From contig NC_018581.1 of the NCBI RefSeq assembly GCF_000143885.2, forward strand, positions 744,001 to 808,000: DNA of 64,000 nucleotides, in the 5' to 3' direction. This stretch comes from Gordonia sp. KTR9. Its GTDB lineage: Bacteria; Actinomycetota; Actinomycetes; Mycobacteriales; Mycobacteriaceae. Below the pieces are notes generated by a model. The model saw only the letters and a list, made by a program, of their open reading frames with translations. It was not told where the DNA came from and ran no database searches. A program made the translations under genes and the position numbers. Positions 34,219-49,943 of the stretch are shown piece after piece (within the stretch, counting starts at the first letter, position 1; the number at the start of each line of letters is the position of its first letter).

Positions 34219-34614
34219 CTAGGAAGTCGTATCGACCGCATATGCGAGCGCAGAGATCTGCAGACGGAATCCAGCGGGGACGTCCCCCGTGGTCACGTGC
34301 CGCGCCGGACGGTCGTCAGGATCGGGAAAGATCAGCTTCCACTGCTCGTTGAGCAGTTCGCGGTACTCGGCACCGGAGATCCGTACGTCGACCTTGACCA
34401 GGTCGGACAGACTTGCGCCAGCTGTGGTGAGAATCGTTCCGAGATGGGCGAAGGCCAACTGGAACTCGTCAGCGGCCGCGATCGGTCGCTCGCCATCGCC
34501 GATTCGGCGACCGAACACATTGCTTGTAGCCACCAGAGGGCCGCGCCGTGCGGCCGCTGGAATCGGATTCGTCCCGTGGTCAAGTCCTTTCACGTGAACC
34601 GCGCGCGGAGTCAC
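34219..34614 (-). CDS. RidA-family protein of the catabolic cluster
   Basis: GTG 34614 overlaps the stop of the RraA-type gene (GTGA), giving 131 aa. Family features: GPLVATSNVFGR (first strands), AHLGTILTTAGASLSDLVKVDVRI (the long helix), and FRLQISALAYAV at the end. RidA paralogues in catabolic operons often act as enamine/imine or enol tautomer hydrolases, so this could handle an unstable enol or enamine intermediate. Last gene of the minus-strand operon RraA-RraA-RraA-RidA. Confidence 0.85.
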   Translation of the reverse strand: MTPRAVHVKGLDHGTNPIPAAARRGPLVATSNVFGRRIGDGERPIAAADEFQLAFAHLGTILTTAGASLSDLVKVDVRISGAEYRELLNEQWKLIFPDPDDRPARHVTTGDVPAGFRLQISALAYAVDTTS

Positions 34615-35300
34615 TCTGTGACCTTGGTCTGGAGCGTGTGATAAGCCAAGCGTCGTCGCGCGTCGTCGAGTCGTTCCCCGGACTCCACAGCTACCCGGAT
34701 CTGTTCTTCGGTTTCCTCGATGACCCGGACGGCGTCCAGCACTGCGTCCTCCAGCGGCGCCGGAATGACGACCACTCCGTCAGAGTCGCCGATGAGGATG
34801 TCGCCGGGATGGACGAGGACGTTATCTATGGTGACCGGCACATCGACAGAGGCCAGCGTGACGCGATCCTTGCCGGTGCGCATGGTGTTGCCCCGGCTGA
34901 AGATCGGGTAGCCGACCTCCAGCGCACGGTCGCTGTCGCGGCATACCCCGTCGATCACGGTCCCGGCCAGCCCTCGTCGGTGAGCAACCGCGGTGAGGAT
35001 GTCGCCCCACACGGTGGCGTCGTCGCGACCGCCGTTCTCGAGTACCACCACACTGCCTGCGGGCACATCGTCGATATAGTCGCCGACGGTTCCGCCGCCG
35101 GCACCGACAGGCTGATAACGACCCGTGAAGGCCCGTCCTACCAGTCGGAACGAGCGATCGAGCGGCTTGATGCCGAGCATCTGTCCGTGGATACCGAATC
35201 GGTCCAGTGCGTCGGAGATCGCAGAGGTCGAATACTTCGCCAGTTGGGTCGGAACACCGGCCTCGGTGTTGGTGTCGAGGTTGGTCGCTGTATTGTTCAT
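34611..35300 (-). CDS. RraA-like aldolase A (HMG/CHA aldolase type)
   Basis: A 229-aa RraA/dimethylmenaquinone methyltransferase-superfamily protein. It contains the complete D-x20-R-D signature associated with 4-hydroxy-4-methyl-2-oxoglutarate / 4-carboxy-4-hydroxy-2-oxoadipate aldolase activity: Asp100 in TVWGDIL, Arg121-Asp122 in GVCRDSD. Aldol cleavage would yield pyruvate plus pyruvate or oxaloacetate with a divalent metal, as LigK/GalC do in protocatechuate and gallate 4,5-cleavage. AAGGAG precedes its ATG. The start overlaps the stop of the next RraA gene by 4 nt, so translation is coupled. Among the three copies this is the best candidate for a true aldolase. Confidence 0.9.
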   Translation of the reverse strand: MNNTATNLDTNTEAGVPTQLAKYSTSAISDALDRFGIHGQMLGIKPLDRSFRLVGRAFTGRYQPVGAGGGTVGDYIDDVPAGSVVVLENGGRDDATVWGDILTAVAHRRGLAGTVIDGVCRDSDRALEVGYPIFSRGNTMRTGKDRVTLASVDVPVTIDNVLVHPGDILIGDSDGVVVIPAPLEDAVLDAVRVIEETEEQIRVAVESGERLDDARRRLAYHTLQTKVTE

Positions 35301-35950
35301 GGCTTCTCCTTAGGGAGGTTGAGCAGGTCGATGCTGTTCTCACCGCGGCGGAGTGCATCCATGATCTGGGCCTCGCGATCGATACGTTGCTGGGCCGCAT
35401 CCAGTACGTGGTCGACGTCCCCGGCGGGGATCACGACAACCCCGTCGGCGTCGCCGACGACCAGATCACCCGAGTGCACTGTCACGTCTCCGATAGTCAC
35501 GGGCCCATTGACGGCGCCCCTGCCATCGGGGTCCTTGTCAGTGCCGCGGATGCACAGGCCCCGGGCGTACACCGGCACTCCGACGGTCGCCAATGCTTCG
35601 CTGTCCCGAACGCAGCCATCGATGACCACACCGGCCACACCGCGAGCGCGGGCGGCCACCGCCATCACCTCGCCCCAATAGCCGGATTCGAAGTGGCCGC
35701 CCACCTCGATCAGTAGGATCTCACCGAGATCTGCCGCCGCGATTCCGCGATGCAGCCACAAGTTGTCGGCGGGCGGACCGGAGACCGTGACCGCGGGCCC
35801 GGCGAAGTCTTGTCCTGGGGTGATCGCGCTGATCGCGCTGGGCAAGGCTCCGATTCGGCCGGCAGCCTCATGCAGTGTCGCTGTACCGAGCCGTCGGGCC
35901 CGATCGATGGTCACCGCGTCGTAGACGGGGGTAACGCGTGTCGTGGTCAT
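35297..35950 (-). CDS. RraA-like protein B (E-x20-R-D variant)
   Basis: I start at ATG 35950 (MTTTRVTPVYDAV); the frame extends to 36112 within the upstream gene. The 217-aa protein has the RraA fold pattern (TATLHEAAGRIGALPSAI, GDADGVVVIPAGDVDHVL). The signature reads Glu94-x20-Arg115-Asp116 (YWGEVM...CVRDSE), a Glu in place of the first Asp. Catalysis may survive, or the acid may select a different oxo-acid (for example oxaloacetate decarboxylation). It is 1 nt from the preceding gene and overlaps the next by 4 nt: one operon. It shares only the fold-level motifs with its neighbours, so this is not a recent duplication. Confidence 0.88.
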   Translation of the reverse strand: MTTTRVTPVYDAVTIDRARRLGTATLHEAAGRIGALPSAISAITPGQDFAGPAVTVSGPPADNLWLHRGIAAADLGEILLIEVGGHFESGYWGEVMAVAARARGVAGVVIDGCVRDSEALATVGVPVYARGLCIRGTDKDPDGRGAVNGPVTIGDVTVHSGDLVVGDADGVVVIPAGDVDHVLDAAQQRIDREAQIMDALRRGENSIDLLNLPKEKP

Positions 35951-35951
35951 A

Positions 35952-36611
35952 TCAGTGCTGTCCTTCCAACATCGCTTCATAATCGATGCCGAACACCGAG
36001 GCCAGGGTCTCGCCTGCTTCGATCCGGCCGAGAATTCCGACCTCTCGGTCCGTGAGCTCGCGGGCCACTCGGTCCACTTCGGTAGCCAGTGCTGCAGGCA
36101 CGAACACAACACCGCTCCCGTCGGCTACGACCCAGTCGCCGGGCTCGACGGTGATCCCGCAGATGCTGATCGATCCTCCCGTAGCGATCTCATGGATGCG
36201 CCCGCGGGCCGTTCGAACCGCGCCTCCGCGACTGAACACCGGGAACCGGAGCTCGCGCGCTTCGTCCAGATCGCGGACCGAACCGTCGCTGACAACTCCA
36301 GCGATTCCGGCCTGTTGTGCGGCACGGGTCAACAGCCCACCCCAGCTGCCCATCTCGGTGCGGCCTCCGTTGTCGACGACGATCACCTCACCGCCGCGGC
36401 TTGCCGTGATCGCGCGGGCACCCAGATGTACGGGTACAACGTCGGGGGCGGAGGTGATGGTGGCGAGTTCGACGGTGATCACCGCTCCGCTGACCCGTCC
36501 GCCCTCCCAGGAGGTAGACAATCCATCGGCCACTCGGTCGGGGACCCCGAGGCTGTCGAGTGCGTCTGATACAACGCATGCGTCGAGTCCTTCAAACAGT
36601 TTGGGAACCAC
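35952..36611 (-). CDS. RraA-like protein C (signature lacking first acid)
   Basis: I prefer GTG 36611 (MVPKLFEGLDACVVSDALDSLG) with AAAGGTGG ~8 nt upstream; the frame runs to 36680. The 219-aa product keeps the fold (VVSDALDSLGVPDRVADG, GSGVVFVPAALATEVDRV) and the Arg113-Asp114 pair in GSVRDLDE. Position 92, where aldolases have Asp, is Gly (SWGGLL). By the D-x20-R-D rule it may lack aldolase activity and could bind substrate or partner with A or B in mixed hexamers. First gene of the minus-strand operon; the promoter lies in the 204-nt divergent spacer. Confidence 0.87.
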   Translation of the reverse strand: MVPKLFEGLDACVVSDALDSLGVPDRVADGLSTSWEGGRVSGAVITVELATITSAPDVVPVHLGARAITASRGGEVIVVDNGGRTEMGSWGGLLTRAAQQAGIAGVVSDGSVRDLDEARELRFPVFSRGGAVRTARGRIHEIATGGSISICGITVEPGDWVVADGSGVVFVPAALATEVDRVARELTDREVGILGRIEAGETLASVFGIDYEAMLEGQH

Positions 36612-36815
36612 CGGTACCCACCTTTCTTCTCTCTGAGGGTGATCGAACGCTAAGCCGCGTCGAGCGGGTATGGCGAGCACAGGTTCCGTCAGCCGAAACC
36701 GGGCCGGTGAAATCCATCTGGCGGAACGAGGACTATCGCCATCTGTTCAGCAGTGCGAATGTCGATTCCAGCCAGCAATTGCCGGACCCCACAGCAGGTT
36801 CGCGACACGGATGAG

Positions 36816-37193
36816 GTGAGCACACTGAGTCGGATCGCCATTATCAACCGGATACCGGTGATACCAGGGCGTCGGGACCAGGCTCTGTCGGCATTTGCCG
36901 ATTTCGACCTGGAGGTTCGCGTCGAGGGTGTTGGAGTGCCAGAACAGTTTCTGGTCGGGGCCGACGCCGAGGATCCGGGACTGGTCTGGGTGCATGAGGT
37001 CTACGCCGACGCAGATGATTACGAGGATCACTTCCAGGCCAAGGCCCGGCGGCGGCTACGCGACCGGATGGACGGCTTACGCGCGGGACGCGTCGACACC
37101 TTCCGCATCGAACTCATCGCGCCCACCGGTGCACTGTCTTCGATGCACAGCACCGTGACCGATTGGAACACGGTCGTCTACGAGGTCACCTAA
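36816..37193 (+). CDS. antibiotic biosynthesis monooxygenase (ABM)-domain protein
   Basis: GTG 36816 (VSTLSRIAIINRIPVIPG) gives 125 aa with the dimeric alpha/beta-barrel pattern: IAIINRIPVIPGRRDQALSAF at the start, then DPGLVWVHEVYADADDYEDHFQAK, the family's strand-helix pair. ABM proteins are cofactor-free oxygenases, quinol oxidases or isomerases; here the substrate is probably a phenolic or lactone intermediate. It begins the plus arm, 204 nt from the divergent RraA operon. The spacer contains an imperfect inverted repeat GTTCCGTCAG / CTGGCGGAAC. The ribosome site is weak. Confidence 0.75.
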   Translation: MSTLSRIAIINRIPVIPGRRDQALSAFADFDLEVRVEGVGVPEQFLVGADAEDPGLVWVHEVYADADDYEDHFQAKARRRLRDRMDGLRAGRVDTFRIELIAPTGALSSMHSTVTDWNTVVYEVT

Positions 37194-37240
37194 GACGTAC
37201 CTGCAGCACTTGTTCCCAGCATGAACAGAGAGGTCAACTA

Positions 37241-38329
37241 ATGCAGTATCGCGAGCTTCACGGAGCCGGATTGAAGCTGTCGGAGGTCAGTTTCGGCGCG
37301 GGGACCGCCGCTGGGCTCATGATCCACAGCAGTCCTGCCGAACAGCGTGCAGCAGTGGAGCATGCGATGAGTCTGGGCGTGAATGCTTTCGATACCTCGC
37401 CGATCTACGGCATGGGCTGTTCGGAAGTCAATCTCGGCAATGCGTTGTCCGGGTACGACGACGCCGTGATCACCACCAAGGTTGCGATCACCCCCGAGCA
37501 TCTGCTGACCGGGTCCATCGGCCAGTGCATCCGCCGATCGGTGCAGGCCAGTCTGCGGCGGCTGCGTCGCGACAGCATTGACATCTTGCTGATTCACAAC
37601 GGTGTGCACTTCCAGCGGCTACACCCACTGACTGCCGACCCCGGCGACCCGTACGATCCGATGCAGGACCTACCGCACCTGACCTTCGACGAGATCATGG
37701 GTGAGAACGGTGCGTGGCAGACGATCCGCGAGCTCAAGAAGTCCGGGTTGATCAAGAGTTTCGGGATCAGTGGACAGGACAACGACCCGGACCTGATGCG
37801 GGCACTCATCGGCGCAGGAGTGCTCGACATCGTCAACCAACCGCTGAATCTCCTCAACCCAACTCCAGTGGCGGGCCGCAAGGGTGAGGGTTTCCTCGCC
37901 GACGTCGAAGAGAACTTTGTCGAATACGACCACTTCTGCGAGTTTGCGGCCGCCAATGACTGCGCCGTCTCGATTATCAGCCCGGTGGCCGCCGGCGTGC
38001 TCACGACCGCCGCGCAATCGGGCATCACGCCTCCCTCGGTCTCCGAATGGAAGGACCGTTTCCCGTTCGACGGGCACTATGCCCGCGAATTGCGCCGTGC
38101 AGCAGCATTCGTACCGGTGGCCGAGCAGGCCGGGATCACCATCGCCGATCTGGCGTACCGCTTCGTACTCAGCACTCCGGGGTTTGTCACTGTGCTTGGC
38201 GGATTTTCCGACATTTCCCAGCTCGAGCAGGCAGTGACCTCGGTCGAGCAGGGGCCCCTGCCGGCCGATGTGATGGCCGAACTGCATCGCATCTGGCAGG
38301 CCCCGTCCGAGCCGGGCTCGGGCGCCTGA
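37241..38329 (+). CDS. aldo/keto reductase
   Basis: ATG 37241 (MQYRELHGAGLKLSEV) gives 362 aa. The tetrad is complete: Asp51 and Tyr56 in DTSPIYG, Lys80 in TTKVA, His119 in LLIHNGV. The TIM-barrel ends with LGGFSDISQLEQAV, the NADPH-binding loop of the family. It is somewhat longer than typical AKRs because of the PHLTFDEIMGENGAW insert. It may reduce or oxidise an aldehyde/ketone formed after ring cleavage, standing where LigC (an unrelated dehydrogenase) acts in the PCA 4,5-pathway; that role is inference from position. Followed after 55 nt by the LigJ-like gene. Confidence 0.9.
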   Translation: MQYRELHGAGLKLSEVSFGAGTAAGLMIHSSPAEQRAAVEHAMSLGVNAFDTSPIYGMGCSEVNLGNALSGYDDAVITTKVAITPEHLLTGSIGQCIRRSVQASLRRLRRDSIDILLIHNGVHFQRLHPLTADPGDPYDPMQDLPHLTFDEIMGENGAWQTIRELKKSGLIKSFGISGQDNDPDLMRALIGAGVLDIVNQPLNLLNPTPVAGRKGEGFLADVEENFVEYDHFCEFAAANDCAVSIISPVAAGVLTTAAQSGITPPSVSEWKDRFPFDGHYARELRRAAAFVPVAEQAGITIADLAYRFVLSTPGFVTVLGGFSDISQLEQAVTSVEQGPLPADVMAELHRIWQAPSEPGSGA

Positions 38330-38384
38330 CTACTCCTGTCACGACGATCCAACTCAACCCAGCCACCGCTCCAGGAGAATACTC

Positions 38385-39371
38385 ATGATCATCGACAGCC
38401 ATGCACATTCGGTCGCCGGCCGCGGCGAAGGACCGGCGGTCGCCGGTAACAGCCTGATGGCGAGGTGGACCACGATGGAGGCCTCAGGTCGTGCGGACTC
38501 CAAACCCCAACCCGCGGATCCCGCCGAATTGCTCGACGGAGCGGCATTCCAACTCGAGCTGATGGACGAGGTCGGGACCGACATTCAGCTGACTTCACCC
38601 CGGCCTTTTGTACTCAAGCACTCTCACTCGTCGTCGCGGCTGGTTCACCGCTGGATCGCGTTGAACAACGACGCTATCGAATTGCAAGCCAATGCCCATC
38701 CCGACCGGATCAAACCGGTGGGTGCATTGCCGCAGGTCAGCGGTCGGCCGATCAGCGAGACGTTTGACGAGATCGACCGTCTGGCGGAGTCCGGATTCAT
38801 CGGCGTCATCCTCAACCCAGATCCCAGTGAGGGCGCCGGCACTTCGCCGCTGCTGGAGGATGAGTACTGGTTCCCCCTGTATGAGAAGTTGTCTGCTCTC
38901 GATCTGCCCGCGCTGCTGCACCCGGCCGCCTGCTACGGCCGCGAGACGTACAGCGAACACTTCATCTCCGAGGAAAGCCTGGCCATCTTGTCGCTGACCC
39001 GCGGCAAGGTCTTCGATGAGTTCCCGGATCTCAAGATCGTGGTCCCGCACGGTGGCGGTTCGATTCCATACCAGTTCGGACGCTGGAATGCGGCAACCAT
39101 GAAGGCACAGCGAGACGGCGCGAACGTACCCGATCTCGCCGATGGTCTGCGCAAGCTCTGGTATGACACGTGCCTCTACACCGCCGATGCGCTCGAACTA
39201 CTCATCAAGGTGGTCGGTGCCGATCGCGTGCTCTTCGGCACCGAACGCCCGGGCAGCGGCAATCCGCTCGATGATCTCAAGCCGGTGATCGAATCGCTGC
39301 CGGGGCTCACCGACACGGACCTGAAGGGAATCTTCGCCGAGAATGCCCGGGCCGTCTACTCCCGACTGTGA
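38385..39371 (+). CDS. amidohydrolase, 4-oxalomesaconate hydratase (LigJ)-like
   Basis: A 328-aa member of the amidohydrolase_2 group. It opens MIIDSHAHS (metal-binding HxH at about 6-8), has VILNPDPSEGAGTSPLLED, LPALLHPAACYG, FPDLKIVVPHGGGSIPYQFGRWN and LFGTERPGSG, and ends IFAENARAVYSRL. These blocks resemble LigJ/GalB-type 4-oxalomesaconate hydratase, which hydrates the ring-opened product of gallate or protocatechuate 4,5-cleavage to 4-carboxy-4-hydroxy-2-oxoadipate. Seen with an RraA aldolase and a LigB-type dioxygenase, the call is coherent. An amidohydrolase decarboxylase of the ACMSD type is the alternative. The stop overlaps a GTG of the next frame. Confidence 0.82.
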   Translation: MIIDSHAHSVAGRGEGPAVAGNSLMARWTTMEASGRADSKPQPADPAELLDGAAFQLELMDEVGTDIQLTSPRPFVLKHSHSSSRLVHRWIALNNDAIELQANAHPDRIKPVGALPQVSGRPISETFDEIDRLAESGFIGVILNPDPSEGAGTSPLLEDEYWFPLYEKLSALDLPALLHPAACYGRETYSEHFISEESLAILSLTRGKVFDEFPDLKIVVPHGGGSIPYQFGRWNAATMKAQRDGANVPDLADGLRKLWYDTCLYTADALELLIKVVGADRVLFGTERPGSGNPLDDLKPVIESLPGLTDTDLKGIFAENARAVYSRL

Positions 39372-39382
39372 GGCATGAGGTC

Positions 39383-40945
39383 ATGAGTTCGGTAGCCATC
39401 AATCGACCCGAGGCCGCCACCCTGGGCGCACTCGTCACCGAGATCGCGCAGCGGCAACCAGCGGCTGACGCCGTCGTCTGCGGTCAGACGCGGCTCAGCT
39501 GGGAGGAGCTGGACGAACAGGTCAGAAACATGGCCGCCGGACTGCTCCGTCTCGGTGTCAGGGCGGGCGACCGGGTGGCGCTGCTTGCCCCGAACTCGGC
39601 GGAGTGGATTGTCACTGAACTCGCCGTCGCCTCGACGGGCGCAATCTTCATGGGACTCAATACCTGGTACAAGGCATCGGACCTGGAGTTTGTTCTCGCG
39701 CATTCCGGCGCTCGAGTGGTGATCACCGTCGACCAGTTGTTCGGCGCTCCGGTGCTGGAGATGGTCCAAGATGTGGCTTCCAGGTGCACCGAGGTCGAAC
39801 AGATCATTGTGATCGGGGATGCACCCGCCGGAACAATCGGTTGGCACACACTCGTGGCCACACCGTCGGGTCAGTGTCCGGCCGAACCCCACTCGGATGA
39901 TCCGGCCGTTGTCCTTTACACCTCCGGTACCACGGCCGATCCGAAAGGCGTTGTGCTGCATCACCGCGGACTTATCGACAACGGATGGGAGATCGGCGAG
40001 CGGCAGCATCTGACGAGTGATGACCGTCTGTGGCTCGGGATACCGCTGTTCTTCAGTTTCGGTTCGGCGAACGCGATCATGGCGGCTCTGACCCACGGTG
40101 TTGCCATGATCGTGCAGGAGAAGTTCGATGCCGGCACTGCCGTGGAGTTGATCCAGCGCGAGAACTGCAGCGTGTACTACGGCATGGGACACATGACGGC
40201 TGCGTTGCTCGAGGAGACTCGGCGGCGCGGAATCGTCCTCGATTCAATGCGTACCGGGTTGACGATCGGTCCGGAGCAGACGATCCGGATGACCGCCGAG
40301 TTGGTGCCACAGATCTGCAATGTCTACGGGCTCACAGAGACGTATGGAAACTGCGCAGTCACCGATTGCGCTGAACCGCTTGATGTTCGGGCGACGTCGC
40401 AGGGGCTCCCGCTGCCCGGGATGAGGATTCGGGTCATCGACCCGGAAACCGGCCTCGATTGTGAGACCGGACAGGTTGGGCTCATACTGGTCGGTGGCCG
40501 GGTGACCAGTGGCTACTATCGGGATCCGATCAGGACCGCCGAGGCGCTGGACGAGGCCGGTTGGTTCGACACCGGTGACCACGGTCACCTCGATGAGCAG
40601 GGCCGAGTCCACTACACCGGCCGCAGCAAGGAGATGCTCAAGGTCGGAGGCATCAACGTCTCGCCCATCGGGGTGGAGAACGTGCTGCTCGACCATCCGG
40701 CAGTGCGTCAGGCATTCGTGATCGGGCGCCCGCATACCGAGCGGGGCGAGCTGCCCGTGGGGATCCTCGAATGGTCTGGCCCCGGACCCGTTGACGAAGC
40801 GGATCTGGCCGCCCACTGCCGATCCCGGCTTCCCTCATATGCCGTTCCCGTCGAGTTCATCGCGGTTTCCGATGATCAATTGCCCCGAACAGACACCGGC
40901 AAAGTTCGCCGCGGCGAACTCGCCTCCCTGGTAGCCAAGGAGTAA
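39383..40945 (+). CDS. AMP-forming acyl-CoA synthetase
   Basis: ATG 39383 (MSSVAINRPEAATL) preceded by GAGG; a GTG at 39368 overlapping the previous stop is also possible. About 520 aa. AMP-binding motif LYTSGTTADPKGVV is near 176-189, the YGLTETYGN A5 motif near 310, and GWFDTGDHGHLDEQGRVHYTGRSKEMLKVGG (A7-A8) follows. The C-terminal lysine for adenylation is in TGKVRRG. It activates a carboxylic acid with ATP and CoA; whether aromatic or a ring-opened acid is unknown. 3 nt before the cyclase gene. Confidence 0.93.
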   Translation: MSSVAINRPEAATLGALVTEIAQRQPAADAVVCGQTRLSWEELDEQVRNMAAGLLRLGVRAGDRVALLAPNSAEWIVTELAVASTGAIFMGLNTWYKASDLEFVLAHSGARVVITVDQLFGAPVLEMVQDVASRCTEVEQIIVIGDAPAGTIGWHTLVATPSGQCPAEPHSDDPAVVLYTSGTTADPKGVVLHHRGLIDNGWEIGERQHLTSDDRLWLGIPLFFSFGSANAIMAALTHGVAMIVQEKFDAGTAVELIQRENCSVYYGMGHMTAALLEETRRRGIVLDSMRTGLTIGPEQTIRMTAELVPQICNVYGLTETYGNCAVTDCAEPLDVRATSQGLPLPGMRIRVIDPETGLDCETGQVGLILVGGRVTSGYYRDPIRTAEALDEAGWFDTGDHGHLDEQGRVHYTGRSKEMLKVGGINVSPIGVENVLLDHPAVRQAFVIGRPHTERGELPVGILEWSGPGPVDEADLAAHCRSRLPSYAVPVEFIAVSDDQLPRTDTGKVRRGELASLVAKE

Positions 40946-40948
40946 ATC

Positions 40949-41689
40949 ATGCGCATCATCGACTTGAGTTACCAATTAGATGAGGGGATGCCGCACCATC
41001 CCATGCACCCGCGCGCGCCGATCGTCCTGTCGGGCACGCTGAGTCACCAGCTGACCAGCCGTTGGATGGGGGAGCATGAAGAGCTCGGCAAGGTCTCCTT
41101 CGTCAACGAGCAGATCGTGCTCTCCGGTCATACGGGGACACACCTCGATGCCCCACTACATGCCGGCCTCGATCTCGATGACGCCGCTCGTATCGACCTG
41201 AGCTGCTGCGTGGGGCCGGCCACGGTTCTTGATCTGAGTCGGTATTGCGGCAGGCGGGTCACCGTCGATGCCGAACAGTTGGCGGCAGCGCTGCCAGACG
41301 GCCAGGCACTGGATGCAATTGTACTGCTGTACACCGGTTGGTCGGCCCAGTACGACACAGACCCCGACGTTTACTACCGCCATTCCATGGGCCTCACCGA
41401 GGACGGCGCTTTGTTCTTGCGTGACAAGGGTGTCCGCTGTGTGGGAATCGATTCGCCCAGCATCGATGCGCCGCATACTCCCGGGGCGCCAGCGCACAAT
41501 CATTTCCTTCGCCGCGAACCGCACGTCTACGTGATCGAAAATCTACGCGGTCTGGAGCAGTTGCCGAGCAGGGTGCCCTTCTTCAATGCTGCCCCGTTGC
41601 CGATCACCAACAGTTCGGGTAGCCCCGTACGCGCCTACGCCATGGTGGGCACCGGACCGCTCACCGAGCAGTCATCACCGGACCGGTGA
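40949..41689 (+). CDS. cyclase-family metal-dependent hydrolase 1
   Basis: A 246-aa PF04199-type protein. It carries the metal motif HTGTHLDAPLH (His61, His65, Asp67, His71) seen in kynurenine formamidase, isatin hydrolase and related ring-opening amide/lactone hydrolases. GIDSPSIDAPHTPGAPAHNHF near 168-188 provides the second-shell region. In this operon it may open a lactone or lactam ring, or hydrolyse an ester intermediate. It lies 1 nt before the CoA-transferase start. Confidence 0.9.
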   Translation: MRIIDLSYQLDEGMPHHPMHPRAPIVLSGTLSHQLTSRWMGEHEELGKVSFVNEQIVLSGHTGTHLDAPLHAGLDLDDAARIDLSCCVGPATVLDLSRYCGRRVTVDAEQLAAALPDGQALDAIVLLYTGWSAQYDTDPDVYYRHSMGLTEDGALFLRDKGVRCVGIDSPSIDAPHTPGAPAHNHFLRREPHVYVIENLRGLEQLPSRVPFFNAAPLPITNSSGSPVRAYAMVGTGPLTEQSSPDR

Positions 41690-41690
41690 C

Positions 41691-42899: not shown

Positions 42900-43900
42900 A
42901 CGACACCAAATCAATTAGCGACCGGTTGACCGAGTTCTTGGCGGCCCAACACCGGGAGGGCGAAGCGCGGGCCGAGGTCGGAACGCTCGCCCGGGCCGGC
43001 GCGGGCCGGTCGCGAGACAACTGGCTATTCGACCTCCTGGGCGACGTCGACGAGAAACTGATCCTGCGATGCGATCCTCCTGGCGGCCTGGTCGAAACCG
43101 ACCGCCGAACGGAGTTCGAAATTCTCCGCGCATTGGAACGCAGCGGACTCCCGACTCCGGTGGCGCGCTGGCTGGATGCGGATGGGAGCTGGTTCGGTAG
43201 GCCGGCGCTCATCATGCGGAGACTGCCAGGTGACTGCGACTATCGCGTCTTGTCCGATGACCGACGCAGCCTGGCCGACCGTCGAGAGCTCGCCGAATCG
43301 TTCTGTGAGCTGTTGGCCGATGTGCACGCCGTGGACTGGGCGGCTACCGATGTGGGCGCTGTACTGGCCGATCCGGGTAAGCGCGCTGCCGAGACCGAGC
43401 TGGACCGATGGAACAAGATCCTGACCAACGATCAGCTCGAACCGTCGCCGGCACTGGAACTGGCGTTCACTGTCCTACGCGAGCATGCACCCCTGGCTGC
43501 CCGTACCGTCTTGGTCCACGCTGACTTCAAGCCCGGCAACATTCTTCTCGACGGACAGCAGGTGACCGCGCTCCTGGATTGGGAACTGGCGCATCTCGGT
43601 GATCCGCTCGAAGACCTCGGCTGGGTCACACAGCCGCTACGGACCAGTGAACACCTGATCCCAGGGGCTTGGTCCGCCGACGATCTGGTGAGCCACTACG
43701 AGTCCGTGACAGGAGCCCCGGTCGATCGTCACGCATTGGCGTGGTGGGTTGGATTCGCGGCACTGAAGACTGCAGTCATGCAGGTCAGTGGGCTGCGTTC
43801 GTTCTTGGAGGGCAGAAGCGACGTTCCGTTCCGCCCCACACGTCGGGTACTCAACGCAGTGCTCGATGCCGTCGAAGCCCTCGAGAAGGAGCAGGCATGA
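42896..43900 (+). CDS. APH-family kinase, LvaA/ACAD10-like
   Basis: A 334-aa aminoglycoside phosphotransferase-fold kinase. N-lobe WLFDLLGDVDEKLILRCDPP; catalytic loop VHADFKPGNIL near 206-216 with HxDxxxxN; metal-binding Asp in LLDWELAHLGDPLEDLGW. APH-fold kinases of this type, such as LvaA of Pseudomonas levulinate catabolism and the kinase domain of ACAD10/11, phosphorylate the 4-hydroxyl of 4-hydroxyacyl-CoA to allow elimination. Translationally coupled to the small gene at 43897 by ATGA, as LvaA is partnered by LvaB. An antibiotic-resistance role is unlikely in this setting. Confidence 0.85.
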   Translation: MNDTKSISDRLTEFLAAQHREGEARAEVGTLARAGAGRSRDNWLFDLLGDVDEKLILRCDPPGGLVETDRRTEFEILRALERSGLPTPVARWLDADGSWFGRPALIMRRLPGDCDYRVLSDDRRSLADRRELAESFCELLADVHAVDWAATDVGAVLADPGKRAAETELDRWNKILTNDQLEPSPALELAFTVLREHAPLAARTVLVHADFKPGNILLDGQQVTALLDWELAHLGDPLEDLGWVTQPLRTSEHLIPGAWSADDLVSHYESVTGAPVDRHALAWWVGFAALKTAVMQVSGLRSFLEGRSDVPFRPTRRVLNAVLDAVEALEKEQA

Positions 43901-44250
43901 GACCAACGATCGAGGAAGAGCTCGCTGGGGCCACGCGGTTGCTGCGGCTGGCAGAGACCTGTGAGCAGCCCGGAGCCGGGGAATTGGCCCGAGACGCCCG
44001 ACGGTTGATCGGCTGGGTATCGGCTTCGTGGCATCAAGCCCTCCCGTTCTTGGTCGAGGACAACCAACGCCTGACCTCGTTGCTAAAGGTTCCGCCAGCC
44101 ACCGCCGTTGCCGACCTCGACGACGCCATCGCAGTGAATGATCAACTGCGCGAGCAACTGTGCGAGGGCATTCGTAATAACGCAGTGGGTCTCGATCGCG
44201 TGGAGGTTTTGCAATATCTCCGCGCGCGGATCGCCGCCGACCCGTCCTGA
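43897..44250 (+). CDS. small LvaB-like (DUF6285-type) partner of the APH kinase
   Basis: ATG 43897 overlaps the kinase stop (ATGA) and gives 117 residues, all-helical by pattern (MRPTIEEELAGATRLLRLAET, ALPFLVEDNQRLTSLLKVP, NAVGLDRVEVLQYLRARI). Size, position and helix pattern match the DUF6285/LvaB small subunit that forms a complex with the LvaA kinase. No catalytic residues are evident; it likely scaffolds or stabilises the kinase. A longer upstream frame (to 43669) is antisense-type noise. The adjacent gene begins 20 nt later. Confidence 0.75.
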   Translation: MRPTIEEELAGATRLLRLAETCEQPGAGELARDARRLIGWVSASWHQALPFLVEDNQRLTSLLKVPPATAVADLDDAIAVNDQLREQLCEGIRNNAVGLDRVEVLQYLRARIAADPS

Positions 44251-44270
44251 CCGATACCGAAAGGCCGATC

Positions 44271-45413
44271 ATGAATCCCGAGCCCAATCCGCTGTACATC
44301 GACGACGCGCATCTGGCCGAGCAGTTCCCGCTCAGCGCCCTCGACGACTTCATGATCCATCAGACACCCGATCCGGTACGGGTCATGTGGACTGGGGACC
44401 CGCGTGCTTACGAACGATATTGGATGGTCAGTCATGACCCGTCTGGTGAGCTCATGGTCGCAACCGGCGGCAGCTTCTATCCCAACCTCGACCGGGCCGA
44501 AGCGTATGCAATTGTGAACCTCCGCGGCCGACAGATCGCAGTCAGGAGCTTCCGTCCTCTCGGTGTCGACCGCGCCGATCTACGTGTCGGGCCCATCGCG
44601 CCCAGTATCGTGCAGGGCCTGCGGGAATGGCGCTATGTGCTCGAATCCAATGAGTGGGGAGTGAGTTATGACCTCACTTTTTGCGATACCACCAGGCAGG
44701 TGTTCCGAGAACCTCTCTCGAACTCAGCATCGGGCAACCCGGCGGGGCGACGCAATGACGTCACGAGCGGCTTCGAGTCATTCGGTGCGATCAGTGGCTG
44801 GGTGGAGGTCGACGGTGAACGCGTTGACCTGAAGCCCGATGCGGTTGGTACGCGAGATCGGCACTGGGGGACGGGGCGCGGGGTGGGCGGCCCGGCGCTG
44901 TCACTCGGCGGGCGGCTACATGTGGGTACCAACGGCAATGCCTTTGTTGCATTCGACGATTGGACCTTGTGGGGAGACCGGTTGTTCTACCCCTTCGGCT
45001 CTGCCGAATCGGGGTCGACCAAGGTGTTCAAGCCCAACCGGAAACTCCGCTTTGAAGCGGACACCCAGATCTTCCGCGAGGCGGTGGTCGATTACACCTT
45101 CGCAAACGGCAAAACCTCACAACTCCACTACGAGAAGATCGATCAGCAAACAATTTTTCTTCGATGCGGAATGTATGGCGGGACGCCCGATGGCGACATT
45201 CACCAGGGCGGCTACGACGGCCCTGCGATGACCGAAGGCGACCGTCACGATCTCAATCGACCGGAGCAGCGCATCGGTTTGCGAGGCCTTGACGAGCATC
45301 TGTGCCGAGTGACTCGCGATGACGGCGCGAGCAGCTTAGGAATCTATCAGACCATTGATCCGATCGCCTATGAAGTCTGCGCAGCCTCTCGACCCGGGTG
45401 GGCGTTCCTGTGA
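44271..45413 (+). CDS. carotenoid 1,2-hydratase/AttH-like (DUF7064-type) protein
   Basis: A 380-aa cytoplasmic protein with Trp/Arg/Gly-rich strands: RAYERYWMVSHDPSGELMVATGGSFYPNLDRAEAY, EWRYVLESNEWGVSYDLTF, DAVGTRDRHWGTGRGVGGP and LGGRLHVGTNGNAFVAFDDWTLWGD. This is the double-lipocalin-like fold of CrtC/AttH proteins, a hydratase or lipid/terpenoid-binding family frequent near Rieske oxygenases and CoA-ester genes in actinomycetes. GTRDRHWG includes the Arg-Asp-His pattern of the active site in CrtC-like proteins. Possible roles: hydration of a double bond, or substrate binding. Function not established. Confidence 0.7.
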   Translation: MNPEPNPLYIDDAHLAEQFPLSALDDFMIHQTPDPVRVMWTGDPRAYERYWMVSHDPSGELMVATGGSFYPNLDRAEAYAIVNLRGRQIAVRSFRPLGVDRADLRVGPIAPSIVQGLREWRYVLESNEWGVSYDLTFCDTTRQVFREPLSNSASGNPAGRRNDVTSGFESFGAISGWVEVDGERVDLKPDAVGTRDRHWGTGRGVGGPALSLGGRLHVGTNGNAFVAFDDWTLWGDRLFYPFGSAESGSTKVFKPNRKLRFEADTQIFREAVVDYTFANGKTSQLHYEKIDQQTIFLRCGMYGGTPDGDIHQGGYDGPAMTEGDRHDLNRPEQRIGLRGLDEHLCRVTRDDGASSLGIYQTIDPIAYEVCAASRPGWAFL

Positions 45414-45576
45414 CCGGCCGGTCTCGCCGGACATCGGTTCAGGATCGGTTCCACCCTGTTGAACGTCAACTATCGCAATCCGGACGACCATCGTAGGCTC
45501 GCACGAATAGTGGGCTAGACCACAGCGGGGCCGTCCGGCCATCGTGTTCGAGGCGTCGAGAAGGGAATCCGAAACC

Positions 45577-46542
45577 TTGTCTGATTCAGCGAATCTCGTT
45601 GATACACGGCTGGTCGCTGTCGTCGACGGTATCGATCACCCCACCCAAGAAGTGGTGACGGTGTCGTTGACCGAGCAGGCCGGGGCGAAGCTGCCCACCT
45701 GGGAACCGGGTGCCCATATCGACTTGATTGTCGGCGATGGACTGATTCGCCAGTACTCACTTTGTGGTGATCCCGCAGATCGGCATCACTATCGGCTCGG
45801 TGTTCTCAACGAGCCGGACGGGCGTGGAGGTTCGGCTGCGGTGCATCAACTCGCCGTCGGTGACAGAGTTGAGATCAGCGAGCCCCGCAACCACTTTCGA
45901 TTACTTCCCGCGCCGTCGTACCTGTTCATCGCCGGCGGCATCGGCATCACGCCATTGATGCCGATGATGCAGGCGGCAACAAGTGCAGGCGCTGATTGGA
46001 AACTGGCGTATGGGGGGCGCCGTCGCGAGAGTATCGCTTTCGGTGAGTGCTTGCACGCTACGTACGGGGACCGCGTGGCACTTTACCCGCAGGATGAATG
46101 CGGGCTTCTGGACGTAGAAGGCCTGCTCAGCGGCCTCGTGCCGGGTTCGCTGGTGTACACCTGCGGGCCCGAGCCGCTGCTCAACGCGGTGGAGTCGGTC
46201 GGAGAGAAGCTCGCACCCGGAACCGTCCACGTCGAGCGCTTCGCCGCAAAAGAGATCGACGAACCAGTCCGCACAGAGGGGTTCACGGTGTGGCTCGCCA
46301 AATCGGAACTGGCGCTGACGGTTCCGCCGGACCGCTCGATCTTGGAGGTCGTCACCGCCGCCGGCATCGAGGTCTCGACCTCTTGCGAGGACGGCATCTG
46401 CGGAACGTGTGAGACAAGGGTTCTGGCTGGGACACCCGATCATCGTGACTCGGTGCTCGACGAGGCCGAGAAGGAGGCCAACGACGCCATGATGATTTGC
46501 GTGTCGCGGGCCTGTGGTGACCGGCTTGAGCTCGATCTCTGA
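45577..46542 (+). CDS. phthalate-dioxygenase-reductase/VanB-type ferredoxin reductase
   Basis: I favour TTG 45577 because AGAAGGGA lies ~10 nt upstream; a GTG at 45544 lacks a ribosome site. 321 aa in the order flavin-binding barrel (LIVGDGLIRQYSLCGDP, with RxYS), NAD domain (FIAGGIGITPLMPMM, YTCGPEPLL) and C-terminal plant-type 2Fe-2S ferredoxin (CEDGICGTCETRV ... MICVSRA, four cysteines). This is the single-chain FMN/2Fe-2S reductase that feeds electrons from NADH to a Rieske oxygenase, such as PDR or VanB. The oxygenase gene follows after 77 nt. About 160 nt upstream (45414-45576) could hold an internal promoter. Confidence 0.92.
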   Translation: MSDSANLVDTRLVAVVDGIDHPTQEVVTVSLTEQAGAKLPTWEPGAHIDLIVGDGLIRQYSLCGDPADRHHYRLGVLNEPDGRGGSAAVHQLAVGDRVEISEPRNHFRLLPAPSYLFIAGGIGITPLMPMMQAATSAGADWKLAYGGRRRESIAFGECLHATYGDRVALYPQDECGLLDVEGLLSGLVPGSLVYTCGPEPLLNAVESVGEKLAPGTVHVERFAAKEIDEPVRTEGFTVWLAKSELALTVPPDRSILEVVTAAGIEVSTSCEDGICGTCETRVLAGTPDHRDSVLDEAEKEANDAMMICVSRACGDRLELDL

Positions 46543-46619
46543 CCAACGCACACAACTTGTACGTCCGACAAACTCGGACGCGCGTCAGCCCGCTCTACTG
46601 AATTGTCCAGGAGGCATAG

Positions 46620-47897
46620 ATGAATCACGAGGACAACGAACTGCTCTGCCGGGTGGGACCTGGCACCGCGATGGGGGCGGTGGTTCGGAACTACTGGTTG
46701 CCAGCCTTTCCCTCGAGTCGGTTGCCGGCTACCGACAGTGACCCGATCCGAGTGCGATTGTTCGGTGAGAACTATGTCGCGTTCCGTGGCGAGGACGGGG
46801 TGATCGGGTTTCTCGACGAGTTATGCCCTCACCGTGGTGCCCCGTTGGTGCTGGGTCATCAGGAGGGGTGCGCAATACGTTGCCTTTATCATGGCTGGAA
46901 GATCGGCACGGATGGTACGGTCCTCGAGACCCCGAACGCGGATTCGTCGGCGATTCGAAATGGGCTCAAGGCCAATGCTTTCCCGGTCGAGGAGTCGCAC
47001 GGGCTGGTGTGGGTCTATCTGGGAACCCAGGACCCGGTGCCTCCTCGTCCTCGCTACGCCTGGGAGATGGAGAAGCCTGAAAACACTCTGGTTGTCGACG
47101 TCGACTGGGATTGCAATTGGGTTCAGGCTCTCGAGGGTCTGCTCGACTCTTCGCACGCGGGCATTCTGCACGCCGATATCCTCAAGAAGTTTCCGCCGAA
47201 GATGCAGGCAGACGGAGCGGCTATGAAGCGGGGCCTGTTGCCGCGATTCGAGATGGAGCGCACAGACTTCGGACTCCACTACGCGGCGATTCGTGCGGGC
47301 GCGGGCAGCACATCCGAGATCGATCAGGTGCGGATCACCGCGTATGCGGCACCGTTTGTGGCTTTCGTTCCGACCGGGGGAATGGCATTCATCCCGGTCC
47401 CGATCGACGATACTCACACCAAGTTCTACAACGTGTGGTGGGACCCGGACGAGAGACTGGACAGTGGCCCAGGATATGAACACCGACTGGACATGTGGGG
47501 AGTGACCGAGGAAATTCTGCAGATGACGGGCATGGCTCCGGTTGAACCCCCAGTTGGTGAGTTGCCTTCGCGGAATGTGTGGCCGCAGGATCGCGAGGCG
47601 ATGCGGCGTGGCGATTCGTACACCGGCCTGCCGGGCATCACTGCAGAGGACGCCGCACTCGCCGTCGGTATGGGTCCGATTATGGACCGCTCGAAAGAGC
47701 ACCTCGTAGCCGCGGACATCATCATCTCCAAGACGCGTCGACTGCTTCTGAAAGAAGCACGTCACGTGGCTGCAGGCGGCGATCACTCCAACTGGCAGAC
47801 CAGCAAGTCCGCTACCGAGAAGATTCGTGCAGCCTCGGGCGACCTTCCGGCTGAAACCGCTTGGCAGGAAATGGTTCCAGACCACGTCGCCACCTGA
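46620..47897 (+). CDS. Rieske non-heme iron oxygenase, phthalate 4,5-dioxygenase type
   Basis: A 425-aa oxygenase. The opening block ENELLCRVGPGTAMGAVVRNYWLPA is typical of the phthalate dioxygenase/LigX subgroup. Rieske cluster ligands Cys69-x-His71 and Cys88-x2-His91 (CPHRGAP ... CLYHGWK) are intact. The mononuclear iron motif is DSSHAGILH with Asp176, His179 and His184. It uses NADH-derived electrons from the upstream reductase to hydroxylate or O-demethylate an aromatic acid; this subgroup includes both ring dihydroxylases and demethylases. Paired with the LigB-type dioxygenase after 37 nt, it is the probable first committed step. Confidence 0.93.
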   Translation: MNHEDNELLCRVGPGTAMGAVVRNYWLPAFPSSRLPATDSDPIRVRLFGENYVAFRGEDGVIGFLDELCPHRGAPLVLGHQEGCAIRCLYHGWKIGTDGTVLETPNADSSAIRNGLKANAFPVEESHGLVWVYLGTQDPVPPRPRYAWEMEKPENTLVVDVDWDCNWVQALEGLLDSSHAGILHADILKKFPPKMQADGAAMKRGLLPRFEMERTDFGLHYAAIRAGAGSTSEIDQVRITAYAAPFVAFVPTGGMAFIPVPIDDTHTKFYNVWWDPDERLDSGPGYEHRLDMWGVTEEILQMTGMAPVEPPVGELPSRNVWPQDREAMRRGDSYTGLPGITAEDAALAVGMGPIMDRSKEHLVAADIIISKTRRLLLKEARHVAAGGDHSNWQTSKSATEKIRAASGDLPAETAWQEMVPDHVAT

Positions 47898-47934
47898 ACC
47901 TACAATCGCAACCGCAACACTAAGGAGTACGTCG

Positions 47935-48948
47935 ATGTCATCGATCGTCGCGTCCGTCGGCACATCACATTCGGTGATGTTGGCCCCGGGCCATCATGAA
48001 CTGTGGTCTACGCGTGCTGAGCAGGACCGCACAGACACCGGACTGCTTGATCGAGAGGGCAAGCCGGCCACATACTCAGAGTTGGAACAGCGCGCAGGCG
48101 ACCGCTTTCGCAACGAGCTGGATGCCGACACCTGGCAGCAGAAGTGGGATCGTGCACAGGTGGCGATCCAGCGAATTCGTGATGATCTGACGGAGCTTGA
48201 ACCGGATCTGCTGTTGATCATCGGTGACGACCAGCGCGAATTGTTCTATGAATCACTTCAGCCGGCGATTGCGGTTTTCATGGGCGACACCGTGAAGATG
48301 AGCGAGGGGCAGGTGCCGCACGATGTGCCCGCCGACCGCGTTGAGAAGGTGCGTGGATTTCTTTCTTGGTTGGGTTGCGATGGAAGATCCCATCCAGGTG
48401 ACCCAGGCGCTGGCCTTCACTTGGTGAAAAGCTTGGTGGCCCAAGGATTCGATGTGGCAAGTATGAACGAATTGCCCGGTGATCGTGAGTTCGGCCACGC
48501 CTTCGGGTGGGCCTTGGGTCCGATGCTGACCGGAACCAAATGGGAGAAGACATCGATCCCGTCGGTGCCGATCATGGTCAACACCTACTTCCCTCCGAAC
48601 CAGCCGACGTCGGCGCGCTGCTATGACCTCGGAACTGCCCTTGCCAAGGCCGTGAGTGACCTACCCGGAGAACGCCGCGTTGCGGTGATCGGCTCTGGTG
48701 GGCTATCGCACTTCGTCGTTGATGAAGAGATCGACCGTAAGGTGATGACTGCGCTTGCCGAGCATGACGTCGATGCTCTGCGCTCGATTCCGGAGGACCG
48801 GATCAATTCTGGCAGCTCTGAAATTCGCAACTGGTTGACAGTCGGAGGCGCTGCGGAGCATCTGAAGACCCGCTGGACTGAATACATCCCCGCCTACCGT
48901 AGCGCGGCAGGCACAGGCGTCGGACTTGCGTTCGGAGTTTGGTCTTGA
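47935..48948 (+). CDS. class III (LigB-type) extradiol ring-cleavage dioxygenase
   Basis: ATG 47935 with AAGGAG just before; 337 aa. SIVASVGTSHSVMLAPGHHELW supplies the first iron-binding His (H12, GTSHS motif), DLLLIIGDDQRELFYE near 91-106 and SGGLSHFVV near 256-264 are the other active-site blocks of the LigB superfamily. These Fe(II) enzymes open catechol-type rings beside the hydroxyls (protocatechuate 4,5-, gallate, 3-O-methylgallate dioxygenases). A separate LigA-like alpha subunit is not present, as in gallate dioxygenase-like or single-subunit enzymes. The stop overlaps a TTG start of the next gene. Confidence 0.88.
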   Translation: MSSIVASVGTSHSVMLAPGHHELWSTRAEQDRTDTGLLDREGKPATYSELEQRAGDRFRNELDADTWQQKWDRAQVAIQRIRDDLTELEPDLLLIIGDDQRELFYESLQPAIAVFMGDTVKMSEGQVPHDVPADRVEKVRGFLSWLGCDGRSHPGDPGAGLHLVKSLVAQGFDVASMNELPGDREFGHAFGWALGPMLTGTKWEKTSIPSVPIMVNTYFPPNQPTSARCYDLGTALAKAVSDLPGERRVAVIGSGGLSHFVVDEEIDRKVMTALAEHDVDALRSIPEDRINSGSSEIRNWLTVGGAAEHLKTRWTEYIPAYRSAAGTGVGLAFGVWS

Positions 48949-49943
48949 GTGCCCTTGATGTCGCTGCTGAGCGCGCAGAACTCGCTGAAGTTGCACGTCG
49001 AGTGTCCAACTGGGGGCGGTGGGGTGAGGACGACGAGCGCGGCCTGCTGAACACGATAACACCGGCCAAGCGAGTGGAAGCCGCACAGTCGGTCGTGCAC
49101 GGGATCGTGCATTCGCTGGCGGTCCCGCTTGGTGCCGGGGGACCTCAGGTTCCAGATGCCCCGGCGCCGCCGAGCACGAATGGAGCGTGGCGTCCACCCC
49201 AGAACCGCAGCAATCCGGTTCACACAATGCTCGCGACCGGCAGTGACCCGCAGGAAGTGAACGGGCTGGGCGGTGGCGCACATTTCACCGACGACGTGAT
49301 CTATATGCACTTGCAGGCTGCGACTCAATGGGATGCACTGTCGCACTGTTATTACGACGACCAGCTATACAACGGTAAGCCAGCGTCCTCGGTCACCTCT
49401 GCGGGTGCCCGCTATCTCTCGATTGACAAAGTTGCGGATGGATTTCTGTCTCGTGGGGTGCTGCTGGACATCGCTCGGTTGCACGGGGTCGAAACCTTGC
49501 CCGGCGACCATGTGATAGATGGTGACGATCTTGAAGCCGCTGCTGATGCTGCAGGGGTGGCGGTGACTCCTGGTGACATCGTCATCATACGTACCGGTTT
49601 GCTGTCGGAGTGGGCACTGACCGGATCGTGGGCGGCGATAAAACGGCGCCCGCAGCCGGGGGTGGGTATCAGTGCCGTCGAGTGGGTTGCCGAGCGTGAC
49701 GTCGCCGCCATTGCAACCGACAACACTGCAGCGGAGGCACTCGGTACAGGTAAGGCGCTGAAGGGTCCAGTTCATATGCTCGCGCTGCGTGATATGGGAC
49801 TACACCTGGGTGAGTATTGGTTCCTTGAAGATCTGGCGGCTGATTGCGCCCGACTAGAGCAGAGCACATTCATGCTGTCCGCTGCCCCGCTTCCCTTTGA
49901 GAATGCCGTCGGATCACCGACGAACCCGATCGCATTGCTATGA
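48945..49943 (+). CDS. cyclase-family metal-dependent hydrolase 2
   Basis: TTG 48945 overlaps the dioxygenase stop (TTGA), giving 332 aa. It is a divergent PF04199 member: the metal motif is MHLQAATQWDALSHCYYDDQLYNG, where Q-x-x-T-Q-W-D-A-L-x-H replaces H-x-G-T-H-x-D-x-P-x-H. GVGISAVEWVAERDVAAIATDNTAAEAL is the second half. The change in the metal motif suggests a substrate different from the first cyclase, perhaps an ester or the open-ring acid. As last gene of the plus arm and coupled to the extradiol enzyme, it may process the cleavage product. Followed by IS relics. Confidence 0.88.
   Translation: MSALDVAAERAELAEVARRVSNWGRWGEDDERGLLNTITPAKRVEAAQSVVHGIVHSLAVPLGAGGPQVPDAPAPPSTNGAWRPPQNRSNPVHTMLATGSDPQEVNGLGGGAHFTDDVIYMHLQAATQWDALSHCYYDDQLYNGKPASSVTSAGARYLSIDKVADGFLSRGVLLDIARLHGVETLPGDHVIDGDDLEAAADAAGVAVTPGDIVIIRTGLLSEWALTGSWAAIKRRPQPGVGISAVEWVAERDVAAIATDNTAAEALGTGKALKGPVHMLALRDMGLHLGEYWFLEDLAADCARLEQSTFMLSAAPLPFENAVGSPTNPIALL

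Follow-up and report, generated by a model that had tools for sequence, protein, structure and literature searches.

We identified, in a stretch of 64,000 nt of Gordonia sp. KTR9 (NC_018581.1; host genome of 5.9 Mb on 4 contigs; hereafter the window), a gene set at 34219–49943 that, judged by sequence comparison, probably encodes a LigZ–LigY module of meta-cleavage and hydrolysis with a LigK-like last step. In the breakdown of 5,5'-dehydrodivanillate (DDVA) by Sphingobium SYK-6, the dioxygenase LigZ cleaves the ring and LigY acts as the C–C hydrolase. The degree of confidence expressed here covers the module and its LigK-like last step, while a hydratase role of a pair of RraA proteins is judged separately below. 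A sequence-only reading of the same stretch had seen an aromatic catabolic island in which ring-cleavage and RraA genes belong together in a non-standard gallate/protocatechuate 4,5-pathway. All genes it named are open frames without inner stops. The cohesion was borne out by an orthologous cluster in Nocardiopsis and by linked LigZ/LigY/RraA loci, and so was the departure from the standard pathway; its frame was wrong, since two enzymes fall on the LigZ and LigY sides and not with LigB and LigJ. Domain calls are from Pfam, with NCBIfam used for the Rv3169 family and for the aldolase equivalog cut-offs. The central genes are:

34219–34614, minus strand: RidA-family protein, accessory module member (PF01042, 28.2 bits, cut-off 27.3)
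34611–35300, minus strand: RraA3, of an RraA-family clade paired with RraA1; candidate subunit of an enzyme processing 4-carboxy-2-hydroxypenta-2,4-dienoate (CHPD) (PF03737)
35297–35950 (open reading frame readable to 36112), minus strand: RraA2, predicted LigK-like HMG/CHA aldolase (3noj match, residues)
35952–36680, minus strand: RraA1, of an RraA-family clade paired with RraA3 (PF03737)
38385–39371, plus strand: LigY-clade amidohydrolase (Amidohydro_2), predicted C–C hydrolase of the ring-cleavage product (LigY 232 bits, tree, residues)
47935–48948, plus strand: LigZ-clade class III extradiol dioxygenase (LigB Pfam domain, LigZ-side tree placement)

Placement of the dioxygenase and the amidohydrolase

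The window dioxygenase matches LigAB structurally and has the class III extradiol dioxygenase fold. In a quick tree it fell on the LigZ side of a branch with a starred support of 100, apart from the other LigB-family proteins of SYK-6. A search of the SYK-6 genome gave six matches, with LigZ and a LigZ paralogue on top (184–190 bits) and the other four at 27–41 bits. Repeating this with tblastn, we obtained 183 bits for LigZ compared to 49–72 bits for four non-LigZ paralogues. Furthermore, the clade carries a residue mark: Gln replaces His61 of LigB in 48 of 49 LigZ-side rows, whereas all seven other rows have His, and the window protein has Gln. We take His61 of LigAB to be an iron ligand. 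The iron site on the LigZ side (window 47935–48948; SYK-6 LigZ, L078 6826–7836) may differ from the usual set of two His and one Glu. The tree and the Gln mark place the protein on the LigZ side, and the former assignment as LigB-type had to be given up.

The amidohydrolase had been called a LigJ-like hydratase. Among solved structures, it scored 232 bits against LigY and 143–157 bits against LigJ, and a quick tree of 66 rows put it inside the LigY clade (57 rows, starred support of 100, branch 1.17) with LigJ outside. The window protein has the LigY-type residues P74, R186, Y189, E196, and P289. We compared 61 LigY-side rows, some places being represented twice and the window's own included, with three LigJ rows, two of which lack the N-terminus. 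R186 occurs in 59, Y189 in 55, E196 in 53 and P289 in 60 of the LigY-side rows, and all four are absent from the LigJ rows. H192 of the window protein is also LigY-type, yet one of the three LigJ rows has His there as well. H6, H8, H179, H222, and E287, which we take to be metal-site positions, are present and are common to LigJ. The closest named relative (98%) is labelled Gordonia terrae. Thus, bit scores, tree and residues point to LigY, and the nearness to LigJ did not hold. Both the amidohydrolase and the RraA-like proteins do belong to the superfamilies that had been named for them; the amidohydrolase sits in a clade different from that of LigJ. With a LigZ/LigY-side placement, C–C hydrolysis is to be expected instead of hydration, and LigC, LigI and GalD would not be needed. 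In the actinomycete loci L018, L022, L027, and L028, two LigY-clade genes flank an acyl-CoA-dehydrogenase-like gene, LigZ and three RraA genes.

RraA proteins and the SYK-6 DDVA cluster

The three RraA-like genes gave Pfam matches of 114–140 bits, and their products had been taken for LigK aldolases. Of the three, RraA2 keeps the LigK-type residue set, and RraA1 and RraA3 do not. A quick tree of 103 rows gave one clade for RraA1 (38 rows, starred support of 95) and one for RraA3 (36 rows, starred support of 99), the latter including the uncharacterised structure 3k4i, the nearest solved one to the window RraA3 (180 bits). RraA2 rows formed a looser group (23 rows, support of 88, not starred, L014 outside), and a branch with a starred support of 97 set this group off together with the solved HMG/CHA aldolase. 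Against this structure, 3noj, the window RraA2 scored 117.9 bits. N71, H75, R123, D124, T145, K147, R195, and E199, given as HMG/CHA-aldolase residues in the available text of PMC5065237, were kept in 24 of 24 RraA2 rows. For all RraA residue counts, the distant rows L035–L038, rows below 170 residues and some further loci were set aside, and some places are counted twice. Since RraA2 scored below the equivalog cut-offs of NCBIfam (PRK09262, 168.1 of 179; ligK_PcmE, 151.9 of 304.5), we term it LigK-like, not LigK.

RraA1 and RraA3 keep a different part of this site. R123 and D124 are present in all RraA1 (38) and RraA3 (35) rows, and so is E199 as far as the rows extend to it (34 of the 38 RraA1 rows, 35/35 for RraA3). 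H75 and R195 are missing from all of these rows, and N71 occurs in none of the RraA3 and in at most two of the RraA1 rows. Position 102 is Gly in 38/38 RraA1 and Asp in 35/35 RraA3 rows, and position 147 is Arg in 38/38 RraA1 rows. The window RraA3 itself has D102, R123, D124, and E199 and lacks H75 and R195.

The two genes travel together. RraA1 was found in 44 loci and RraA3 in 40, with both in 39, and their starts lie 604–794 bases apart in 36 of these 39. The exceptions are Nocardiopsis (1309 bases, counted twice, with RraA2 in between) and one locus with 2863 bases. RraA1 occurs without RraA3 in five loci, all of them pieces of 3.8 kb, and the reverse holds for L014 (21 kb). A search with RraA3 only in 394 genomes of the class gave seven matches besides the own genome, five of them directly adjoined by RraA1. 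One of the remaining two is cut by a contig end, and the other has RraA2, RidA and a LigY-like fragment, with no RraA1 at the threshold used. In the short flanks of these seven, a LigZ-type gene was seen once and an aldehyde dehydrogenase gene lay downstream in three, and the RraA set may therefore also serve without a LigZ neighbor. In L096, L098 and L099 the order is RraA1–RraA3–RraA2 followed by aldehyde dehydrogenase; LigZ and LigY were not seen in the short flanks.

The same pair is found in the DDVA cluster of SYK-6. The order there is LigZ (L078 6826–7836), an RraA1-like gene (45%), an RraA3-like gene (56%), LigY (9215–10213) and, further on, LigXa. According to the available text of PMC12997858, ligZ is SLG_07720, ligY SLG_07750 and ligXa SLG_07770. 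Since these tags run in steps of ten, exactly two genes fit between ligZ and ligY, matching the RraA pair. The text of PMC6874591, as far as available, names ligXa, ligZ, ligY, ddvK, ddvR, and ddvT, and RraA does not occur in it. The DDVA chemistry described in the accessible parts of PMC6874591 and PMC12673573 runs from an oxygenase, which yields the catechol, over LigZ cleavage and LigY hydrolysis to an acid and CHPD, which is hydrated to HMG and cleaved by an aldolase to two pyruvates. For the alkene hydration of CHPD, Table 2 of PMC12673573 (2025) gives the SYK-6 enzyme as not identified. The RraA pair is thus a candidate for this step within the model organism itself, and an open question in lignin-dimer catabolism could be reduced to a two-gene knockout and an enzyme assay. 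We found no described link between LigZ/LigY and RraA in the passages searched of the open-access literature; PMC12673573, in the text available, has RraA alongside LigZ/LigY, as an aldolase. A second SYK-6 set, LigY–LigZ–RraA1–RraA3 (L080, G546), lies away from the DDVA cluster.

The window and the DDVA cluster share the LigZ-side dioxygenase, the LigY-clade hydrolase, the RraA1–RraA3 pair and a Rieske oxygenase. In contrast to SYK-6, the Rieske oxygenase of the window is of another clade and comes with a VanB-type reductase, the gene order is different, and RraA2, RidA, CoA-ligase, CoA-transferase, cyclases and a TRAP transporter are added, while no LigW-type decarboxylase was seen.

Recurrence, proposed route and alternatives

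The search for the same gene order in other genomes, as proposed earlier, revealed an orthologous cluster in Nocardiopsis sp. ATB16-24 (L059–L062), including Rieske oxygenase (79%), LigY-type (77%), LigB-type (76%), cyclase-2 (75%), RraA3 (75%) and the aldo/keto reductase (74%). Hence, the gene clustering exceeds chance. Overall, both clusters share an IclR pair, TRAP genes, RraA1/2/3, the ABM-domain protein, the aldo/keto reductase, LigY-type, ligase, cyclases, reductase, Rieske oxygenase and LigZ-type genes at 25–79% identity. Nocardiopsis has thiolase and ChsH2-type OB-fold genes where the window has the CoA-transferase, the APH pair and the Rv3169-family gene.

A contig scan with the amidohydrolase alignment yielded 37 loci, several of them cut by contig ends. 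A LigZ-side gene is present in 25 and the RraA1+RraA3 pair in 23 (both in 19, at least one in 29); RraA2 occurs in 23, RidA in 14, a Rieske oxygenase in 14 and a reductase in 9. Hosts with LigZ and/or the pair include Nocardiopsis, Nocardia, Streptomyces, Pseudonocardia, Geodermatophilus, Arthrobacter, Nonomuraea, Granulicoccus and SAR202/Dehalococcoidia Chloroflexota. The pair lies beside LigZ/LigY homologues in Actinomycetota, Chloroflexota (SAR202 included) and Pseudomonadota, and the module core is found again in bacteria of soil, marine and plant-associated origin. A plasmid of Rhodococcus koreensis R85 carries RraA2–LigZ–RraA1–RraA3–FAD enzyme–ligase–RidA–LigY. The module is also present on a plasmid of Bradyrhizobium sp. 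CB82, and on both plasmids RidA lies beside it. Across the loci, the hydroxylating enzyme and the CoA genes are more variable than the LigZ/LigY/RraA core.

From clade membership, gene linkage and conserved residues we infer activities, a substrate class and an order of steps. The substrate would be a catechol ring that has a carboxylate and, next to the hydroxyls, a carbon substituent R, i.e., a 5-substituted protocatechuate-like ring. Judged by domain type, the Rieske oxygenase and VanB-type reductase may make this catechol by O-demethylation or hydroxylation. By their clades, the LigZ-type dioxygenase would open the ring next to R and the LigY-type amidohydrolase would hydrolyze a C–C bond to give R-COOH and CHPD. 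Hydration of CHPD to HMG might fall to the RraA1/RraA3 pair, given its linkage and retained metal/enolate residues, possibly with help from RidA. RraA2, by its residues, would be the aldolase that splits HMG to two pyruvates. R-COOH could be carried onward as a CoA ester by the acyl-CoA ligase, the CoA-transferase and the cyclase-family hydrolases, replacing the decarboxylation of the SYK-6 DDVA route. The mhqPOD DDVA pathway of Paenibacillus sp. B2, in the accessible text of PMC12673573, has the same proposed chemistry of demethylation, extradiol cleavage, C–C hydrolysis, CHPD hydration and HMG aldolase; it differs in using several unrelated enzymes, with UxuA as the proposed hydratase.

The Rieske oxygenase carries a LigXa_C domain (144.9 bits), a Pfam family whose members are not confined to the LigXa clade. 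It has the Rieske motif C-x-H/C-x2-H and a D-x2-H-x4-H stretch. An identity as LigXa was not supported: the protein lies outside the LigXa clade in the tree and is 28% identical to SYK-6 LigXa. It groups with its Nocardiopsis orthologue, unlike the oxygenases of the module loci L023, L027, L028, and L032, which are inside the LigXa group, and by this comparison the substrate of the window module is probably other than DDVA itself. The SAR202-VII-2 genome of L025 (G402; 2.8 Mb, marine) has 32 matches to the window Rieske oxygenase at E <= 1e-20.

Several observations weigh against a LigZ–LigY module. With this placement of the Rieske oxygenase and with 7fjl (Rieske-domain protein, 243 bits) and 7fhr (putative phthalate 4,5-dioxygenase, 231 bits) as its best solved relatives, the entry reaction may not be O-demethylation. 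Identity to the characterised enzymes is only 36% for LigZ and 44% for LigY. An own-genome search with the window amidohydrolase as query for a second amidohydrolase (LigW-type decarboxylase) at E <= 0.001 returned one of ten candidates, the protein itself. LigZ and LigY are about 11 kb apart in Nocardiopsis, and homologues of RidA, the CoA-transferase, the APH pair and the CrtC-like protein had no match in the 80-kb Nocardiopsis stretch. Likewise, RraA2 and RidA had no match in the 19-kb ddv stretch of SYK-6. Eight of the 37 loci lack LigZ as well as the pair: L008, L031, L033, and L034–L038, the last five being the most distant ones at 31–32% identity.

A gallate or 3-O-methylgallate 4,5-pathway would draw on related enzymes. 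LigB-type cleavage would give 4-oxalomesaconate, a LigJ-like enzyme would hydrate it, RraA would split CHA to pyruvate and oxaloacetate, and RidA or another protein would replace the tautomerase. Indeed, every member has homology to a 4,5-pathway family at superfamily level, the residues of a CHA aldolase are intact in RraA2, and relatives are often named "3-O-methylgallate 3,4-dioxygenase" or "4-oxalmesaconate hydratase" in their source records. This pathway is nevertheless improbable, since in the trees and by their residue patterns the two enzymes fall on the LigZ/LigY sides and not with LigJ or the remaining LigB-family proteins of SYK-6, and the RraA1/RraA3 pair is the arrangement of SYK-6 ddv. 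On the trees and residues of the two enzymes, the gallate/LigJ reading was rejected. Gallate/protocatechuate 4,5-cleavage (LigAB, DesB, GalA; LigJ, GalB; LigK, GalC) shares with the window the superfamilies and the final aldolase step, whereas the ring-cleavage and next enzyme of the window are of the LigZ and LigY sides. The two arms could also form a mosaic, with the RraA/RidA arm on the minus strand belonging to one pathway and the plus-strand operon to another, the two being merely adjacent on the island. The divergent arms, the transposase genes or remnants, the G+C content below that of the surroundings and the neighbors of RraA in the RraA3-only genomes (aldehyde dehydrogenase in 3/7, LigZ-type in 1/7) would suit this. 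Against it, RraA1, RraA2, RraA3, ABM, the aldo/keto reductase and LigY-type are all on one strand in Nocardiopsis, as are RraA2, LigZ, RraA1, RraA3, RidA and LigY in R. koreensis, and we consider a mosaic very improbable.

Within the LigZ–LigY module, sequence patterns lead us to propose tentatively, with somewhat less than even confidence, that RraA1–RraA3 may be a heteromeric RraA-fold hydratase (or hydratase/aldolase) acting from CHPD to HMG. It would do so in the SYK-6 DDVA pathway and, across Actinomycetota, Chloroflexota (SAR202) and Pseudomonadota, in a general module of the LigZ–LigY type that acts on C5-substituted catechols, with oxygenase and CoA-ester genes exchanged according to the side group R. 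In the same LigZ/LigY module, the pair might instead be the HMG aldolase (or an oxaloacetate decarboxylase), and CHPD would be hydrated by another enzyme or RidA. Pyruvate-enolate chemistry is to be expected, since R123 and D124 are invariant in the pair and E199 is kept wherever the rows extend to it, and the SYK-6 ddv stretch has no RraA2 match. However, RraA2, where present, already has a full aldolase site, the pair is without H75 and R195, and none of ten further recurring gene families, read by eye, resembles a known hydratase; we regard the pair as an aldolase as rather unlikely. These ten presumably include transporter ATPases, VOC, oxidoreductase, class II aldolase and CoA ligases.

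The island and its remaining genes

The remaining genes of the set and those upstream of it are:

23481–24287, plus strand: probable IclR regulator
24443–25318, minus strand: probable IclR regulator (homologues of the IclR pair, 51% and 45%, lie ahead of the ligase gene in the Nocardiopsis stretch)
26142–27374, plus strand: TRAP DctP (25% homologue in the Nocardiopsis stretch)
29673–30164, plus strand: TRAP DctQ (30%, likewise)
30056–31678, plus strand: TRAP DctM (45%, likewise)
36753–37193, plus strand: ABM-domain protein (PF03992, 29.2 bits; 35% homologue at the equivalent Nocardiopsis place)
37241–38329, plus strand: aldo/keto reductase (PF00248)
39368–40945, plus strand: AMP-forming acyl-CoA ligase (PF00501; 60% in the Nocardiopsis cluster)
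40949–41689, plus strand: PF04199 cyclase-family metal hydrolase 1 (Pfam; 68% in the Nocardiopsis cluster)
41691–42899 (open reading frame readable from 41586), plus strand: acetyl-CoA hydrolase/transferase-family CoA-transferase (PF13336, AcetylCoA_hyd_C)
42896–43900, plus strand: APH-type phosphotransferase-family protein (PF01636)
43897–44250, plus strand: small protein of 117 aa, second of the "kinase pair" (4-bp overlap with the APH gene)
44271–45413, plus strand: Rv3169-family ("CrtC-like") protein (NF053593, 304.7 bits, cut-off 150; no Pfam match)
45544–46542, plus strand: VanB-type reductase, probable Rieske oxygenase partner (Fer2 and NAD_binding_1; 56% in the Nocardiopsis cluster)
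46620–47897, plus strand: Rieske oxygenase, probable entry enzyme for ring hydroxylation or O-demethylation (Rieske and LigXa_C)
48939–49943, plus strand: PF04199 cyclase-family metal hydrolase 2 (Pfam; 5ibz, 221.8 bits, uncharacterised)

By our reading, RraA2 ends at 35950, and the starts of the aldo/keto reductase, the CoA-transferase and the LigZ-type gene were corrected to 37241, 41691, and 47935. The genes are tightly packed, with 13 of 16 neighbor gaps below 60 bp or overlapping and the remaining three at 72 (the divergent gap), 77 and 130 bp, the last being the largest on the plus strand. The minus-strand arm of RraA1, RraA2, RraA3 and RidA has two 4-bp overlaps and one 1-bp gap. The CoA-ester genes that had been seen on the island are confirmed by Pfam for the ligase and the CoA-transferase. 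A kinase step, also suggested at that time, could not be placed in the pathway, and the second protein of the "kinase pair" has no Pfam match. Structure look-ups for the aldo/keto reductase and cyclase-2 gave broad or uncharacterised relatives only and did not indicate a substrate. The TRAP transporter (26142–31678) probably serves the uptake of an acidic substrate.

The island was apparently acquired. G+C is 0.57–0.64 in 4-kb blocks across the stretch that holds the gene set, compared to 0.65–0.71 in the surroundings. The low-G+C island spans about 43 kb, from 22628 to about 66000, with its right edge near 66–68 kb, past the window end, and starts just after a tRNA-Thr gene (22628–22700). An own-genome pattern search for a second tRNA-Thr end as an att copy, with up to two mismatches, found, apart from that tRNA, a single place with two mismatches at a distance of 327 kb, and none nearby. 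Across 397 genomes of the order, a match to the LigZ-side dioxygenase gene at E <= 1e-60 was seen in five, one being the Gordonia genome itself; the other congeneric genomes listed, also five, had none. This rarity fits acquisition by transfer. A search of PLSDB with 34219–49943 for a near-identical plasmid copy gave only a 35-base match in one record. Transposase genes or remnants are present: an rve-type gene (27904–28716) between the DctP and DctQ genes, and, downstream of the cluster, an HTH_38-type transposase (50269–51218) split over two overlapping frames, which we take to be IS30-like. A second gene set on the island (52016–62478) comprises acyl-CoA ligase, aldehyde dehydrogenase, cytochrome P450, Zn-alcohol dehydrogenase, family III CoA-transferase, acyl-CoA dehydrogenase and SDR genes, and may serve side-chain processing or a separate pathway.

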